A DNA stretch of 64,000 nucleotides from Brevundimonas subvibrioides (GTDB lineage Bacteria; Pseudomonadota; Alphaproteobacteria; Caulobacterales; Caulobacteraceae): assembly GCF_027271155.1 (NCBI RefSeq), contig NZ_CP114542.1, positions 434,001 through 498,000 on the forward strand, written 5' to 3'. Both the position numbers and the translations under genes were made by a program. The notes below the pieces were generated by a model. That model searched no databases, was not told the DNA's origin, and saw nothing but the letters and a program-made list of their open reading frames with translations. Shown here piece after piece: positions 57,605 through 63,831 of this stretch. Positions within the stretch are counted from its first letter, which is position 1. Every line of letters starts with the position of its first letter.

Positions 57605-58876
57605 ATGCCAGAGGTCTCTGAAGGCGTCGTTCGTCGCCGCATCAGCCAGCAGGAACTCGACGCGATCTGCGCCCGGCACGACCGGCTGTGGCAGGCGCGG
57701 CCCGGCGGGGCGCGCGCGGTCTTCGCCTGGATGGACCTGTCGGGACTGAACCTGAAGGGCCGCAATCTCGCCGACGCCGACTTCTCCGCCGCCTGCCTGA
57801 TCGGGGCCGACCTGACCGGCGCGCGGCTGGACAACGGAACCTTTTTCGGCGCGGACATGCAGGACGCGATCTTCGTCGACGCCTCGCTGCGCCGGGCGGA
57901 TCTGCGCGGGGCCTGTCTGCGCGGGGCCAACCTCTCCGGCGCGGACCTGTTCGAGGCCGACCTGCGCGAGGGGGCCATCGCCTCGGCCAGCAAGACCGAC
58001 GGCTTCCGCATCGTGGAGGCGCAAGGGCGCAATATCACCCAGGCCCAGGGTGTCAGCCTGGTGGGTGCCAACCTGCAGCGATCCCGGCTGTCCGGCATCG
58101 CGGCCCAGTCGGCTGACTTTTCCGACGCCATCATGAAGGACTGCAAGCTGGTCCGCGCCAACCTGAAACAGGCCTGCTTCCGGGGGGCCGATCTGGCGGG
58201 TGCCGACATGTCGGGTGCGGACCTGACCGGTGCGGACATGCGCGACGCGGTGCTGGTGGGTGTGAACTCGTCGATGTGGCGGACCGACCGGGCCAATCTG
58301 GAAGGGGCCCTGACCGACAACCGCTCCGCCGGAGAACCGGTCGCACAGCTGCCTGCGGCCGAGATGCTGCATGAACACGCCATCTGGTGCGAGAGCGGTG
58401 GCGTCGAGGGTCAGCCTTCGGTCTTCGACCATGTCGATCTGCGAGGCCTCGGCTCGATCACAGGCCTGAACCTGACGGCCCTCTCGGCGCGGGGCGCGGT
58501 CTTCTACGGACTGAACATGGAGGGTGTGCAGCTTCAGGGCGCGCATCTGGAAGGGGCCGATCTGCGCTCCACCAATCTGAAGCGCGCCGATCTGCGCGGG
58601 GCCCGCCTGAGCGGCGCGCGTCTGAACGGGGCGGACCTGCGCGAGGCACAGCTGGGGCCCCTGATGATCGGGCCGGACCGCCTGCTGCCCGCAGACCTGA
58701 CCGGGGCGACCCTGCGCTCTGCCGATCTGACGGGCGCGGACCTGCGGCGTGCCGTCCTGGTCGGGGCCGATCTGACGCGGGCCAGCCTGCACGGAGCCCA
58801 GACCCGCCATGCGGTCCTGACCGACGCCGTGCTGGCGGGGGTCAGGGGTTATGAACGCCAGGCCGAAACGACATAG
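57605..58876 (+). CDS. Pentapeptide-repeat protein
   Basis: 423 aa. About 25 A(D/N)LxG/x-type pentapeptides in two or three blocks (about 43-130, 170-235 and 285-410), for example GADLTGARLDNGTF and LEGADLRSTNLKRADLRG. Between the blocks lies a non-repeat segment with the LPAAEMLHEHAIWCESGG motif. The repeats form a right-handed quadrilateral beta-helix. No signal peptide. Members range from gyrase-protecting DNA mimics to unknowns; nothing fixes this one. Confidence 0.88.
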   Translation: MPEVSEGVVRRRISQQELDAICARHDRLWQARPGGARAVFAWMDLSGLNLKGRNLADADFSAACLIGADLTGARLDNGTFFGADMQDAIFVDASLRRADLRGACLRGANLSGADLFEADLREGAIASASKTDGFRIVEAQGRNITQAQGVSLVGANLQRSRLSGIAAQSADFSDAIMKDCKLVRANLKQACFRGADLAGADMSGADLTGADMRDAVLVGVNSSMWRTDRANLEGALTDNRSAGEPVAQLPAAEMLHEHAIWCESGGVEGQPSVFDHVDLRGLGSITGLNLTALSARGAVFYGLNMEGVQLQGAHLEGADLRSTNLKRADLRGARLSGARLNGADLREAQLGPLMIGPDRLLPADLTGATLRSADLTGADLRRAVLVGADLTRASLHGAQTRHAVLTDAVLAGVRGYERQAETT

Positions 58877-58984: not shown

Positions 58985-59446
58985 TCAGGCCGTCTTGCTC
59001 TCGATCAGTCCCGTCGAATCCTTCGTCGCGATCTCGATGCGCCGGGGCTTCAGCGCCTCGGGGAGTTCGCGCTTCAGTCCGATGGACAAAAGGCCGTTGT
59101 CGAGCCCCGCCTCTGTCACGACGACATAGTCTGCCAGCTGGAAACGGCGCTCGAAGTCACGCTCGGCCAGGCCGCGATGCAGATACGTCCGCTCGGTCGT
59201 ATCGTCGTTGGCCGTCTTGCGACCGGCGACGGTCAGCAGGTTTTCCTTGACCTCGATGTTCAGCTCGTCGGGCTTGAAGCCGGCGACGGCGATCTCGATC
59301 CGATAGGCGTTCTCGCCCGTCGTCTCGATGTTGTAGGGCGGCCAGCCGGTTTCCTGACTGGTGCGCGCGGCGCTTTCCAGCAGGCCCGCCAGACGGTCGA
59401 AGCCCACGGCGGAACGATAGAGGGGGGTGAAGTCGATGGTACGCAT
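58985..59446 (-). CDS. ibpA: Hsp20 family small heat-shock protein
   Basis: 153 aa from ATG 59446 with AGGAG upstream. Alpha-crystallin domain (PPYNIETTGENAYRIEIAVAGF, ELNIEVKENLLTVAG, LAERDFERRFQLADYV, LDNGLLSIGLKREL), N-terminus MRTIDFTPLYRSAVGFDRL like IbpA. It holds unfolded proteins at heat stress. A ROSE-like hairpin covers the ribosome site and a sigma-32-like promoter lies about 130 bp upstream, so expression is probably heat-controlled at two levels. Confidence 0.94.
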   Translation of the reverse strand: MRTIDFTPLYRSAVGFDRLAGLLESAARTSQETGWPPYNIETTGENAYRIEIAVAGFKPDELNIEVKENLLTVAGRKTANDDTTERTYLHRGLAERDFERRFQLADYVVVTEAGLDNGLLSIGLKRELPEALKPRRIEIATKDSTGLIESKTA

Positions 59447-59452
59447 GTCGAT

Positions 59453-59469
59453 CTCCTGATCATCAGCAA
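59453..59469 (-). promoter_or_regulatory. ROSE-like RNA thermometer hairpin over the hsp20 ribosome site
   Basis: In the transcript, TTGCT (59465-59469) pairs with the Shine-Dalgarno AGGAG (59453-59457) as U-G, U-A, G-G, C-G, U-A, closed by GA/UC and a three-base loop. The central G-G opposition and the U(U/C)GCU sequence are the ROSE hallmark that melts on heating. The rest of the leader is GC-rich and can form extra stems. Confidence 0.6.
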
Positions 59470-59581
59470 GATGGAACCGGCCCGCGTTTTGCCCGGGTCG
59501 GCGGTGGGGATCAGTCCGTCCGGCCCCCGTGGGGCACCGAATGGCCTGCGAGAGCCCGGTGACCGGCACTCTCGAAAAGGA

Positions 59582-59610
59582 AGGTTGGGATCGCGTCCTG
59601 CGACGTCAAG
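59582..59610 (-). promoter_or_regulatory. Sigma-32-like promoter for hsp20
   Basis: CTTGACG (59604-59610) and CCCAACCT (59582-59589) on the minus strand with a 14-bp spacer fit the RpoH pattern. A transcript would have an untranslated leader of about 125 nt containing the ROSE-like hairpin. Confidence 0.4.
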
Positions 59611-59697: not shown

Positions 59698-60522
59698 ATG
59701 CGCCGCCTGACGCTGTCCCTCGCAGCCCTCGTCCTGATGACGGGCTCCGCAGCCGCCCAGACCCTGCCGACGCCGGGTGAGACGGCAGCCCAGCGCGTGG
59801 CGCGGCGCGAGGCCATGCAGCCCCCCGTGCTCCGGGAGGATGAACAGCTTCAGGCCGCGATCGGATCCGACACCCGCCCCGCCGCGGACGTGGCCCGCGA
59901 CGCCTTTCGGCATCCCTACGAGACCCTGACCTTCTGGGGCCTGACGCCCGGCATGAGCATCGTCGAGATCGAGCCGGGTCGCGGCGGCTGGTGGAGCGCC
60001 ATCCTGCGGCCCTATGCGGCGGCGACCGGTGGCACCTACACGGCGGTCAATCGGCCGCTGGAGGGCATGGGCGTGGCCGACGGCACGGCCGACCTGATCG
60101 TGGTGGCGCGCGCCTTCCACAACTGGCAGCGCTCGACCCCCGCGCGGACCGGCCCCTATCTGGAGGCCTTCTTCAGGGCGCTGAAGCCCGGCGGCATCCT
60201 CGCCGTCGAGCAGCACCGCGCCGACGAGGGCCTGAATGCCGCCGTCACCGCTCCCACCGGCTATGTCTCCGAAAGCTACGTCATCCAGGCCGCGCAGGCG
60301 GCCGGCTTCGTGCTGGAGGCCCGCAGCGAGCTGAACGCCAATCCGAGGGACAATCACGATCATCCCTATGGCGTCTGGAGCCTGCCGCCGACCCGCGTCA
60401 GCGCCCCGCGCGAGGGGGTCGCGACGGATCGCGCCACGCCCCTGACCGAGGCGGAACGTGCGGCGCTCGATGCCATCGGCGAGAGCGATCGCATGACCCT
60501 GCGGTTCCGCAAGCCGGGCTGA
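59698..60522 (+). CDS. Exported class I methyltransferase-like protein
   Basis: 274 aa from ATG 59698 with GGAG upstream. Signal peptide MRRLTLSLAALVLMTGSAAA. The body is a Rossmann methyltransferase fold: MSIVEIEPGRGGWWSAILRP (motif I), VARAFHNW (motif IV position), FFRALKPGGILAVEQHRADEG (motif V/VI), and a C-terminal DRMTLRFRKPG. Because the periplasm contains no SAM, its real activity is unclear. Tandem paralog of the next gene; 115 bp apart. Confidence 0.83.
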   Translation: MRRLTLSLAALVLMTGSAAAQTLPTPGETAAQRVARREAMQPPVLREDEQLQAAIGSDTRPAADVARDAFRHPYETLTFWGLTPGMSIVEIEPGRGGWWSAILRPYAAATGGTYTAVNRPLEGMGVADGTADLIVVARAFHNWQRSTPARTGPYLEAFFRALKPGGILAVEQHRADEGLNAAVTAPTGYVSESYVIQAAQAAGFVLEARSELNANPRDNHDHPYGVWSLPPTRVSAPREGVATDRATPLTEAERAALDAIGESDRMTLRFRKPG

Positions 60523-60637
60523 TCGGGCCGGGTTTCGCCAGCGACGCTCAAGGCTTTGACGCGCCTGACGAAGCCCTCTAATCCAGCGGCTTCCGGGACG
60601 TTTCGTACCCGGGGGGGCGGCAGGACGCGGATAGTTG

Positions 60638-61550
60638 ATGCAGGATCGGAGGACGCCTCGATCATCGGCCGTATCGCGTCGCGCGATGCTGTCCGGCGTG
60701 GGTGTCGTCGCCGTCCTGGGTATGGCCGCCTGCGGCCGGAAGACGGAAACCAAAGCCGATCCCGAAGCCCCGTCCGGCCCACCCGAAGGGTCGCTGGAAT
60801 GGGCCATCGCCGGGCCCTGGCGCGCAGCCGACCGGTCCCGCGACCCCTGGCGCCATCCGCTGGAGACCCTGCGCTTCTTCGGCCTGCAGCCGGACATGAC
60901 GGTGGTCGAGTTCTGGCCCGGCAGTGGCTGGTACACCGAGATCCTTGCCCCTTATCTGCACAAGGGGAAGGGTGAATACTATGCCGCCGGCTTCGCGACC
61001 GGGCCGGGGGCCGATCCGGCGCAGATCGCCCTGAACGCCAATTTCGAGCGCCGCTTCAGTGCCGACGAGCGTCTGTACGGGGAGATAAAGTTCAGCCAGT
61101 TCGGCGCGACGACCGGACCGGTCTGCCCGACGGGCGAGGCGGACATGGTCCTGTTCATGCGCAACATCCACGCCTGGATGGCCGCCGGCATTGCGGAAAA
61201 GGCCTTCGCCGACGCCCATGCCGCCCTGCGACCGGGCGGCACGCTGGGCGTCGAACAGCACCGCCTGGCCCCGGACCAGGATCAGGACCCGGCCGCCGCC
61301 AACGGCTATGTCCAGGAAGCCTTCGTCAAGCAGCTGGCCGCCGAGGCCGGGTTCATCTTCGTGGCTTCGTCAGAGATCAACGCCAATGACGACGACACCA
61401 AGGATCATCCCTTCGGCGTCGAGACCCTGCCGCCCCGTCTGGCGACCTCCCCCCCCCGGCACCCCGCCCGATCCGACGTTCGACAGCGCCCGATATCGCG
61501 AGATCGGCGAAAGCGATCGCATGACCTTGAAGTTCAGGAAGCCAGAGTGA
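60638..61550 (+). pseudogene. Frameshifted exported methyltransferase-like lipoprotein (paralog)
   Basis: Starts at ATG 60638. N-terminus SRRAMLSGVGVVAVLGMAAC has a twin-arginine-like pair and lipobox GMAAC. The body matches the previous protein: VVEFWPGSGWYTEILAPYL, MRNIHAWM, ALRPGGTLGVEQHRLAPD. After LPPRLATS a run of nine C (61449-61457) shifts the frame; skipping one C restores the ending GTPPDPTFDSARY...ESDRMTLKFRKPE and the stop at 61548-61550. As given, the frame reads on into the hydrolase gene. A sequencing error in the homopolymer is the simplest explanation; genuine loss or phase variation is possible. Confidence 0.75.
61449..61457 (+). repeat. C9 homopolymer causing the frameshift
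   Basis: Nine consecutive C within the methyltransferase gene. With eight C the reading frame would rejoin the sequence homologous to the intact paralog. Confidence 0.8.
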
Positions 61551-62557
61551 ACCGCGCCGCCGCCTTTGCCGCCAATGCCCCGCTCATGGGGGTTCCGGGT
61601 GCCGCCGCCCCGCCCGGGGGCGAGGGCGACTGGTTCCGCGGGGCCGGGGGTCTGCGCCTGCGCGCCGCCTTCTGGATCCCGTCCGCCCTCGTCGCCCCCC
61701 GACCGCGTGGCACGGTCATCCTCAGCCCCGGCCGGACCGAGCCGATCGAGAAATATTTCGAGGTCATCGGCAATTTTCTGGCGCGCGGCTGGTGCGTTCT
61801 GGCTCACGACTGGCGGGGCCAGGGTCTGTCTGCCCGCCTGCTGCCGGATCGCCTGAAAGGCCACGCCCGGGCGGTCGAGGAATTCCTCGACGACTATTCG
61901 CGCCTGCTGGACGCGTTCGAGACGCGGGCCCCCAAGCCATGGATCGCCGTCGGCCATTCGATGGGTGGCACGCTGAACCTGCTGAGCCTGCAGGCGGGCG
62001 AGAACCGCTGCGCCGGCGCGATTCTGTCCAGCCCCATGCTGCGCATCAAGACCGGCAAGCGGTCGATGTGGTCGGTCAAGCTGGCGGTGCGCTGGAACGT
62101 GCGTCACGGCAAGGCCGGCGACTTCGTGCTGGACGACCCGGACGATCCCTTCGACCACACCTTCGAAAAGGACGCCCTGACCTCCGACGAGGGCCGATAC
62201 GAGATGTGGCGACAGCAGCTCTATGCCTGCCCGCACCTGGCCGTCGGGGGCCCCACCTGGGGCTGGCTGGCTTTCGGCATCGACGCGGGCGAACGCGCGC
62301 TGAAGCCCAAGGCGCTGAAATCGGTGACAATTCCCTGCACCATCGTCCAGTCGGGCGAGGACGACCGGGTCTGGAAACAGACCAACCGCTGGGCCGCCAA
62401 GCGTCTGGGTCGCGGGCGCTATGTCGAGGTGGCCGGGGCGAAGCACGAGGTCATCATGGAGACCGACGACCACCGCGCCATCTTCCTGCGCGAGTTCGAC
62501 GCCATGGCGGATTATGTGTCGCCCGTGAACGACCTGGCCCCCGTGCCGACGGACTGA
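61547..62557 (+). CDS. Alpha/beta hydrolase (lysophospholipase-like)
   Basis: 336 aa from GTG 61547, whose GTGA overlaps the paralog stop. Alpha/beta hydrolase with nucleophile in VGHSMGGTLNLLSL, catalytic acid near SGEDDRVWKQ and His near AGAKHEVIME. The lid part KGHARAVEEFLDDYSRLLD is typical of PldB/monoglyceride-lipase-like enzymes. No signal peptide. In the raw frame it is fused to the methyltransferase, but the internal GTG and the restored stop argue for two genes. Confidence 0.85.
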   Translation: MNRAAAFAANAPLMGVPGAAAPPGGEGDWFRGAGGLRLRAAFWIPSALVAPRPRGTVILSPGRTEPIEKYFEVIGNFLARGWCVLAHDWRGQGLSARLLPDRLKGHARAVEEFLDDYSRLLDAFETRAPKPWIAVGHSMGGTLNLLSLQAGENRCAGAILSSPMLRIKTGKRSMWSVKLAVRWNVRHGKAGDFVLDDPDDPFDHTFEKDALTSDEGRYEMWRQQLYACPHLAVGGPTWGWLAFGIDAGERALKPKALKSVTIPCTIVQSGEDDRVWKQTNRWAAKRLGRGRYVEVAGAKHEVIMETDDHRAIFLREFDAMADYVSPVNDLAPVPTD

Positions 62558-62560
62558 TCG

Positions 62561-63346
62561 CTACTGCGCGCCCCGGCGGAATGCGACCAGGGCCTGATCG
62601 CGCACGCGCGGGTCGCCGACGGCGATGATCCGGCCGTCGCCGCTGACCGGCTCGCCCGCCCAGTTGGTGACCTCGCCGCCCGCCGCCTCGACCACGGGGA
62701 TCAGGGCCGACCAGTCCCAGACCTTCAGGCCCGTCTCGGCCACCATGTCGATCCGCCCCATGGCCAGCATCGCATAGGCATAGGCGTCGCAGCCGTAGCG
62801 GGCCAGGCGCGCGGCCGCCATCACCTGGGTCCAGGCCCCCAGTTCGGGCGCGGTGAAGATTTCCGGCGCGGTCGTGGCGATCACCGCATCGGTCAGCCGC
62901 TCGCAGGGCCGCACGCGGATCGGCCGGGTCTGGCCCCGGCTCATCAGCACGGCGCCCGAGGGTCCCCCCAGAAACAATTCGCCGATGTACGGCTGGGAGA
63001 TGGCGCCGACCTTCGGTCGTCCACCGACCCGGAGTGCAATCAGGGTCGTCCACATCGGCAGGCCCGCGATGAAGGCCCGCGTGCCGTCGATGGGGTCCAG
63101 GATCCAGACGTGTTCCGCGTCCGGTCGGTCCTCGCCGTATTCCTCGCCGATGACCCCATGGTCGGGGTACCGGGCTGCGATCATCGTGCGGATCGCGGCT
63201 TCCGCCTCCCTGTCCGCCTGGGTGACCGGATCGAAGGCACCCGGGCCCGCCTTGTTCTCCTCGGCATAGTCGCCGCGAAAGTAGGGCAGGGTCACACGGG
63301 CGGCCCCGGCGGCCAGCTCGACGGCAAAGGATTCAAACTCGGTCAT
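62561..63346 (-). CDS. hisN: Inositol-monophosphatase-family phosphatase, HisN-like
   Basis: 261 aa. Motifs: GEEYGEDRPD (metal-binding Glu), WILDPIDGTRAFIAGLPMW, and WDWSALIPVVEAAGGEV. The WILDPIDGT(R/K)xF context with VHIG-type region is closest to HisN histidinol-phosphatases, though other IMPase members are similar. Cytoplasmic. A heptad repeat lies immediately upstream of the start, and no ribosome site is visible. The 3' end is convergent with the hydrolase, 3 bp apart. Confidence 0.88.
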   Translation of the reverse strand: MTEFESFAVELAAGAARVTLPYFRGDYAEENKAGPGAFDPVTQADREAEAAIRTMIAARYPDHGVIGEEYGEDRPDAEHVWILDPIDGTRAFIAGLPMWTTLIALRVGGRPKVGAISQPYIGELFLGGPSGAVLMSRGQTRPIRVRPCERLTDAVIATTAPEIFTAPELGAWTQVMAAARLARYGCDAYAYAMLAMGRIDMVAETGLKVWDWSALIPVVEAAGGEVTNWAGEPVSGDGRIIAVGDPRVRDQALVAFRRGAQ

Positions 63347-63351
63347 GGGAA

Positions 63352-63444
63352 GTGGCGAGTGGCGAGTGGTGAGTGGTGAGTCAAGCTCGACCCTTCACCG
63401 TTCGTTGCCCATCTCGTCACTGACCACTCGCCACTCGCCACTCG
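63352..63444. repeat. Inverted GAGTGGC heptad repeat, copy 2
   Basis: GTGGCGAGTGGCGAGTGG (63352-63369) followed by GTGAGTGG, and three CCACTCG heptads at 63424-63444. It fills the 98-bp gap between the XRE regulator stop and the hisN start, touching the regulator stop codon. Same unit as 52432-52546. Confidence 0.6.
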
Positions 63445-63831
63445 TCAGGACGCGACCGCGTCCCCTTCCGAGTGCAGCGACTTGGCCAGGTCCAGCAGCC
63501 GACGGCGCGGGCGTTCGCCCAGCTGATAGTAGGCCTGGATCAGGTCGAGGGTCTCCTTGCGTGAAAACATCTCCCCGCCATTGGCGCTGGCGGTCTCCCT
63601 GCGCTCCATGGCCTCGGCCAGACCGTCGTAGAAATAGCTGATCGGCGTCTCCAGCGCCTCGGACAGCTGCCACAGGCGCGCGGCCGAGATACGGTTCGCC
63701 CCGCATTCGTATTTCTGGATCTGCTGGAAGCGGATGCCGACCTGGATGGCCAGCTGTTGCTGGGTCAACCCCAGCAGGCGACGACGGCGGCGCAGACGGC
63801 GCCCCAGGTGAAGATCGATATCGGTGGCCAT
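63445..63831 (-). CDS. XRE-family HTH regulator
   Basis: 128 aa from ATG 63831 with AAGGGGAC upstream. HTH_3 domain: RRRRLLGLTQQQLAIQVGIRFQQIQKYECGANRISAARLWQLSEAL (about 17-62). The C-terminal half (ISYFYDGLAEAMERR, ETLDLIQAYYQLGERPRRRLLDLAKSL) is helical and resembles the SinR-like class in alphaproteobacteria. It precedes hisN but the targets are unknown. Confidence 0.88.
   Translation of the reverse strand: MATDIDLHLGRRLRRRRRLLGLTQQQLAIQVGIRFQQIQKYECGANRISAARLWQLSEALETPISYFYDGLAEAMERRETASANGGEMFSRKETLDLIQAYYQLGERPRRRLLDLAKSLHSEGDAVAS

Follow-up and report, generated by a model that had tools for sequence, protein, structure and literature searches.

A conserved four-hairpin hsp20 leader in Brevundimonas subvibrioides, very probably a ROSE-type RNA thermometer, behind an RpoH-type promoter

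The hsp20 locus and its leader

The window, the whole stretch of 64,000 nucleotides analysed here, comes from the genome of Brevundimonas subvibrioides (2.97 Mb, a single contig). Its minus strand carries at 58985..59446 the gene of an hsp20 or ibpA-like small heat-shock protein. The product of 153 residues matches the Pfam family HSP20 (E 1.4e-17), and its closest NCBIfam model is IbpA (E 3.5e-50), although the score of 169.7 bits stays below the cut-off of 212 for that model. Ahead of the gene the strand reads, from 5' to 3': UUGCU; a small loop; AGGAG; six bases; and the ATG at 59446-59444. The Shine-Dalgarno (SD) sequence AGGAG, assigned from the sequence, occupies 59453..59457 (minus strand), and UUGCU at 59469-59465 lies opposite to it, with one bulged G, in a hairpin that we number IV and call the ROSE hairpin (59451..59472, minus strand). 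The pattern TTGCTGA-N2..6-TCAGGAG that describes it has a single occurrence in the window, and 100 dinucleotide shuffles did not produce it. Three further hairpins precede it on the same strand, all recognized, like the fourth, by covariation: the G+C-rich hairpin III (59476..59502), which is missing in some relatives; hairpin II (59512..59548); and hairpin I (59550..59573), with a bulged G at alignment column 51 that is invariant in all 85 aligned leaders.

Upstream of the hairpins lies a promoter of the RpoH (sigma-32) type, CTTGACG-N14-CCCAACCT (59582..59610, minus strand), with boxes that are conserved in relatives. CTTGACG (59610-59604) begins 164 bases upstream of the hsp20 ATG, and CCCAACCT (59589-59582) follows after the 14-base spacer, so that the arrangement can also be written as CTTG-N17-CCCA. 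From the position of the promoter, transcription of hsp20 would start near 59575. The structured leader thus runs from about 59575 to 59447, amounting to some 129 nt with four hairpins, and the coordinates of the original prediction (59453..59610) need widening to include it.

On the plus strand, 57605-58876 encodes a pentapeptide-repeat protein of 423 residues (Pfam PF00805, E 3.2e-58), and 59698-60522 and 60635-61550 encode two adjoining, similar-looking methyltransferase-like proteins. A scan of 59698-60522 and 60635-61558 gave no Pfam or NCBIfam match at 0.001. The second of these proteins seems to end in another frame (61191-61550), so that a frame change may have made one long open reading frame, 60635-62557, out of two genes. 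Further along, an imperfect inverted repeat (63342-63451) has arms of 39 nt, 82% complementary, with GAGTGGC-like units.

Conservation of the promoter and the hairpins

Comparative analysis was based on 110 loci including the window's own; genomes of the same genus supplied 30 of them and named genomes the other 80 (the top 80 out of 311, among which the relatives found with the hsp20 protein were mostly Brevundimonas). Comparison of their last 150 bases left 88 distinct leaders, and 85 leaders were aligned.

The original prediction had claimed a CTTGACG-N14-CCCAACCT promoter, and the boxes are indeed present in the window and in all 88 distinct leaders: CTTG is followed by CCCA (67 leaders), CCTA (12), ACCA (8), or TCCA (1), with a spacer of 17 bases in 87 leaders and 18 in one. 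They lie 133-178 bases upstream of the ATG. Among the 78 leaders with CTTG-N17-CC[CT]A the sequence of the spacer varies, and 75 retain a T at position 28. The leaders therefore display the marks of an RpoH promoter (CTTG at -35, a CCCA-type -10 and fixed spacing), the E. coli consensus for comparison being that printed in PMC3669281. By inspection, similar boxes precede groES (CTTGACG...TCCTACTT) and a second hsp20 (CTTG-N17-CCCATAT) in the same genome. The pattern CTTGN{16,18}CCCANNT was dropped as genome-wide evidence for RpoH, since it is not enriched (36 places versus 62 for the reversed control) and misses the hsp20 promoter, whose T sits one base later; it has no occurrence in the window. 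Because such a pattern is common across the genome, the evidence for the promoter is its conservation.

TTGCT stands 23-29 bases upstream of the ATG in 88 of 88 distinct leaders, and hence in all 110 loci; UUGCU and the bulged G are invariant in the 85 aligned leaders, with compensating changes around them, as at the outer pair of hairpin IV (columns 186/206), which is C-G in 64 and U-A in 19 of the 85. When nine loci from other genera were added to the 88 distinct leaders, 97 of 97 leaders held a T[TC]GCT able to pair with the SD with a bulged G, in the best-pairing register picked by the script, a choice that favours pairing. The imperfect pairing of U(U/C)GCU with the SD around a predicted bulged G, a trait of ROSE elements, is accordingly found throughout. 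The second base of the motif faces the third base of the SD as U-G in 82 of the 97, as U-A in 13 and as C-G in 2 (with the motif UCGCU), and these U-A and C-G pairs support the bulged G. The facing of UUGCU and AGGAG that had been predicted thus stands, and is kept in relatives, but the G-G opposition put forward as a hallmark does not, as 13 of 97 leaders have an A as third SD base, and 2 of 97 a C as second motif base. Where both bases are G, there may be a G-G contact like the one in the NMR structure of the Bradyrhizobium ROSE hairpin (PMC9450479, PMC11342760). The structure of another ROSE-like stem, solved by crystallography, departs from the NMR one, and removal of the bulged G lowered heat induction in the ROSE elements tested (PMC11342760).

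Left unaided, RNAalifold drew hairpin I, the core of II, and hairpin IV from the 85-leader alignment (22 pairs, 9 with compensatory changes). The structure put to the test has 38 pairs in four hairpins and was drawn up from two sources, the fold of the window's leader and inspection. Standard pairs fill 95.8% of its cells, and 19 of the 38 pairs, with 248 cells, have changed on both sides. The corresponding shuffle means are 88.2% paired, 12.3 double-change pairs and 70.8 double-change cells; none of 500 shuffles matched any of five measures. Kinship alone can lift an alignment above such shuffles without any structure, but versions of the structure slid by one to three columns retain the kinship and gave 30-55% paired and 15-26 double-change cells, a comparison in which the way the structure was chosen gives it some advantage. 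The original prediction held that a lack of covariation among related leaders would count against it; covariation is found, and at a level that no shuffle reached.

Every hairpin contributes to this result. Hairpin I has 99.1% of its cells paired (double changes in 4 of 9 pairs), hairpin II 93.3% (6 of 12), hairpin III 92.5% (both-side changes in 7 of its 8 lower pairs) and hairpin IV 98.7% (2 of 7). The window's own leader violates one of the 38 pairs, by an A-C mismatch in hairpin III (columns 127/176). By inspection, this hairpin is missing in 4 of the 85 aligned leaders (L091, L103, L104 and L111) and in five of ten distant loci. ROSE elements are marked by two to four hairpins, the last carrying the SD; here there are four, each with covariation, while the fold of the single sequence varies with the stretch that is folded.

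Database searches and distribution in the Caulobacteraceae

The Rfam ROSE families, from which the original prediction expected a significant match in a covariance search, gave none. When a stretch of 281 bases was compared with 4227 Rfam families, the best match was ROSE_3, with 18.9 bits (E 0.097) against a cut-off of 43, and ROSE_2 scored 15.2 bits against a cut-off of 65; RF00435 found nothing in this genome up to E 10. Neither the window nor any of 20 chosen relatives (0 of 20 at the gathering threshold) had a ROSE match above the model's cut-off, a cut-off that tests the models of the library rather than a defining ROSE trait. Searched across the genome, ROSE_3 reached E 0.244 at the hsp20 leader, barely above chance places, and each of the 14 control genomes searched also had matches to it at E 10 or less. 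Nor did any ROSE model reach E 1 or less in ten distant loci of this type, while the loci picked up earlier by RF00435 scored again in 4 of 4 cases. Weak matches of Mu-gpT-DE, ST7-OT3_4 and Atu_L6 on the 281-base stretch, and of suhB, below threshold, on the opposite strand of three distant leaders, were taken as chance.

A covariance model was built from the leader alignment; many of its matches in the genus are sequences in the model or their close kin. The own genome gave one strong match of 128.6 bits, the next (12.9 bits, E 3.6) being taken as noise. Within the genus the leader was matched in 130 of 131 genomes, and the sole miss (G085) has only a distant hsp20; a weak extra match in G030 (24.6 bits) is without UUGCU. 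The family sample yielded matches in 233 of 299 genomes and 16 of 22 genera. In the remaining 66 genomes the gene may be absent, the leader may have diverged, or the match may have been removed by a stricter filter. Wider samples gave matches in 29 of 150 genomes of the order, with 27 within the family and two weak ones outside (29.5 and 23.9 bits), and in 2 of 240 of the class, both of the genus.

Ten distant matches from eight other genera were read, and all ten end at the start of a protein judged by resemblance to be Hsp20-like, with TTGCT in eight and TCGCT in two ahead of this start. One of them, L191, is identical in sequence to L112 of the alignment. A position upstream of a small heat-shock gene, another ROSE trait, is thus seen both in the window, by the Pfam HSP20 match, and in these ten loci. 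The GGCGCYG core of hairpin I is kept in all ten, even where hairpin III is lost.

RF00435 was above its cut-off in 26 of 199 genomes of the family. In the 11 genomes for which places were listed for both models (14 when the order sample is added) its places differ from those of the leader model, so that RF00435 marks other elements, and some Caulobacteraceae seem to hold other ROSE elements of the rhizobial type. Among these places, L152-L155 illustrate that some genomes of the family have up to four RF00435-type matches (E 1 or less, some below the cut-off).

Predicted temperature response, rival readings and related systems

The isolated hairpin (59472-59451) takes the described fold, with one G bulged, at -4.8 kcal/mol and 37 C. 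In longer constructs the outcome depends on the stretch that is folded. The hairpin was predicted to cover the SD, and it does so as the minimum-energy fold from 20 to 48 C when the RNA stops at the ATG. Extending this RNA by 14 bases into the gene confines that fold to 37 C: at 20-30 C two of the five SD bases are free and the remaining ones pair elsewhere, and from 42 C four of five are in a loop. Between 59440 and 59510 (71 bases) the ROSE hairpin is held from 20 to 37 C and opens from 42 C, but between 59430 and 59520 (91 bases) it never forms, and three of the five SD bases pair with other bases at all temperatures tried. As to a free SD in the minimum-energy fold, which had been named as speaking against the prediction, the window sequence gives a mixed answer.

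In two of the four constructs an alternative hairpin takes over from 42 C upwards, with four SD bases in its loop. This was rejected as a conserved feature: its loop and flanks make up 27 distinct pairs in the 88 leaders, the mean of the stem is 3.41 versus 3.35 with the flanks redealt, and 745 of 2000 redealings were as high.

Averaged over the 88 leaders, the probability that the SD is unpaired goes from 0.12 at 20 C through 0.14 (30 C) and 0.18 (42 C) to 0.27 at 60 C. Controls with shuffled upstream sequence (120 sequences, from the first 40 leaders) gave 0.35-0.37 at 20-42 C and 0.35-0.42 overall. Unlike its relatives, the window's own leader, whose SD exposure is about 0.29 at 20 C and reaches 0.40 at 42 C, resembles the shuffled leaders (0.35 and 0.37). 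Nearest-neighbour models predict only a small rise of SD exposure with heat; ROSE sensing is said to rest on non-canonical pairs (PMC4166951), and as nearest-neighbour energies do not describe such pairs, folding says little for or against a temperature response.

We consider it very probable, from the comparison of sequences, that this leader is a four-hairpin RNA thermometer of the ROSE type, keeping the translation of an IbpA-like small heat-shock protein repressed at growth temperature. Both putative layers of control, the SD hairpin and the RpoH-type promoter, are supported by comparative evidence: the covariation, the SD pairing in 97 of 97 leaders and the promoter boxes in 88 of 88, so that the central claim of the original prediction, a ROSE-type thermometer behind an RpoH-type promoter, holds up with corrections. 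By analogy with studied ROSE elements, the imperfect SD hairpin would loosen first on heating; the ribosome would then gain the SD and translation would rise; RpoH would raise transcription in parallel; and hairpins I-III, staying closed, would aid folding or stabilise the leader.

The small predicted shift of mean SD exposure between 20 and 42 C would also suit a rival reading, in which the leader is a conserved structured 5' UTR that restrains translation or shields the messenger whatever the temperature, does no meaningful temperature sensing and leaves heat control to RpoH alone, and hairpins I-III, which are stable, G+C-rich and strongly conserved, would fit such a role as well. We regard this as improbable, for U(U/C)GCU and the bulged G, a mark of tested ROSE elements (PMC11342760), are kept while neighbouring pairs exchange, and an SD that is merely closed would need no bulge. 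That the UUGCU/SD complementarity is a chance match without functional RNA structure has a negligible probability: sub-threshold Rfam scores and the shuffled-like SD exposure of the window's leader agree with it, but the pattern is absent from the shuffled windows, the covariation exceeds every alignment shuffle, and nearly all genomes of the genus have the leader.

The thermometer proposed here has several known counterparts. More than 40 ROSE-type thermometers had been identified in alpha- and gamma-proteobacteria by 2005 (PMC4166951), and Caulobacter crescentus, of the same family, is named in PMC3669281 among organisms with classical ROSE thermometers, so that the original prediction, in calling the occurrence here worth testing, understated what is in print. 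The Caulobacter element is said there to have three to four hairpins and is likened to ours by description only; five of the ten distant relatives of our leader are without hairpin III. Like the rhizobial ROSE1 of Bradyrhizobium hspA (RF00435), the leader has a small heat-shock gene downstream, four hairpins and a UYGCU facing the SD in the last of them (PMC9450479, PMC3669281), but the RF00435 model itself does not recognize it. With the ROSE-like ibpA thermometers of Pseudomonas it shares the U(U/C)GCU-SD hairpin, the sigma-32 promoter and an ibpA-like gene, the hairpins numbering two there and four here (PMC3669281). For thermometers in Brevundimonas itself, our literature search found nothing beyond one synthetic-biology review, a search that says little about subscription journals.

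ROSE thermometers are thus already known, also in this family; new are the breadth of the distribution, the covariation test, the miss by the Rfam models and the conserved hairpin I. While the general picture of RNA thermometers is unchanged by this leader, it belongs to a well-supported ROSE set, present in nearly every genome of the genus searched and in about three quarters of the sampled family, that was missed by the Rfam models tried, and the leader alignment and covariance model could seed an RNA family. Its natural variation (one sensor pair as U-G, U-A, or C-G; hairpin III kept in some members and lost in others) would be useful for tests of sensor tuning. More speculatively, the Caulobacteraceae might carry a lineage-specific ROSE subfamily with hairpin I as a conserved functional module that works alongside the thermometer, perhaps by binding a factor or by stabilising, and the second hsp20 might carry a short UCGCU-type element; we hold this only tentatively.

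The second hsp20 of the same genome, near 2885242-2885348, has a CTTG-N17-CCCATAT promoter and a short leader, and is a lead towards a possible short ROSE-like element. There CAGUC[G]CU can face AGGACUG in seven pairs with a bulged G (24 and 13 bases upstream of the ATG), and the minimum-energy fold of this leader does not choose the UCGCU/SD hairpin (z 0.11). Seventeen second-hsp20 loci were compared (the own one, L197 and 15 that were fetched). Nine have CTGCT; no more than four consecutive pairs form in these, and the promoter pattern is not matched. The other eight have TCGCT 18-24 bases upstream of the ATG; in seven of these the best register makes 6-7 pairs with TCGCT (in L201 the script preferred another motif), and promoter boxes are likewise present in seven of the eight.
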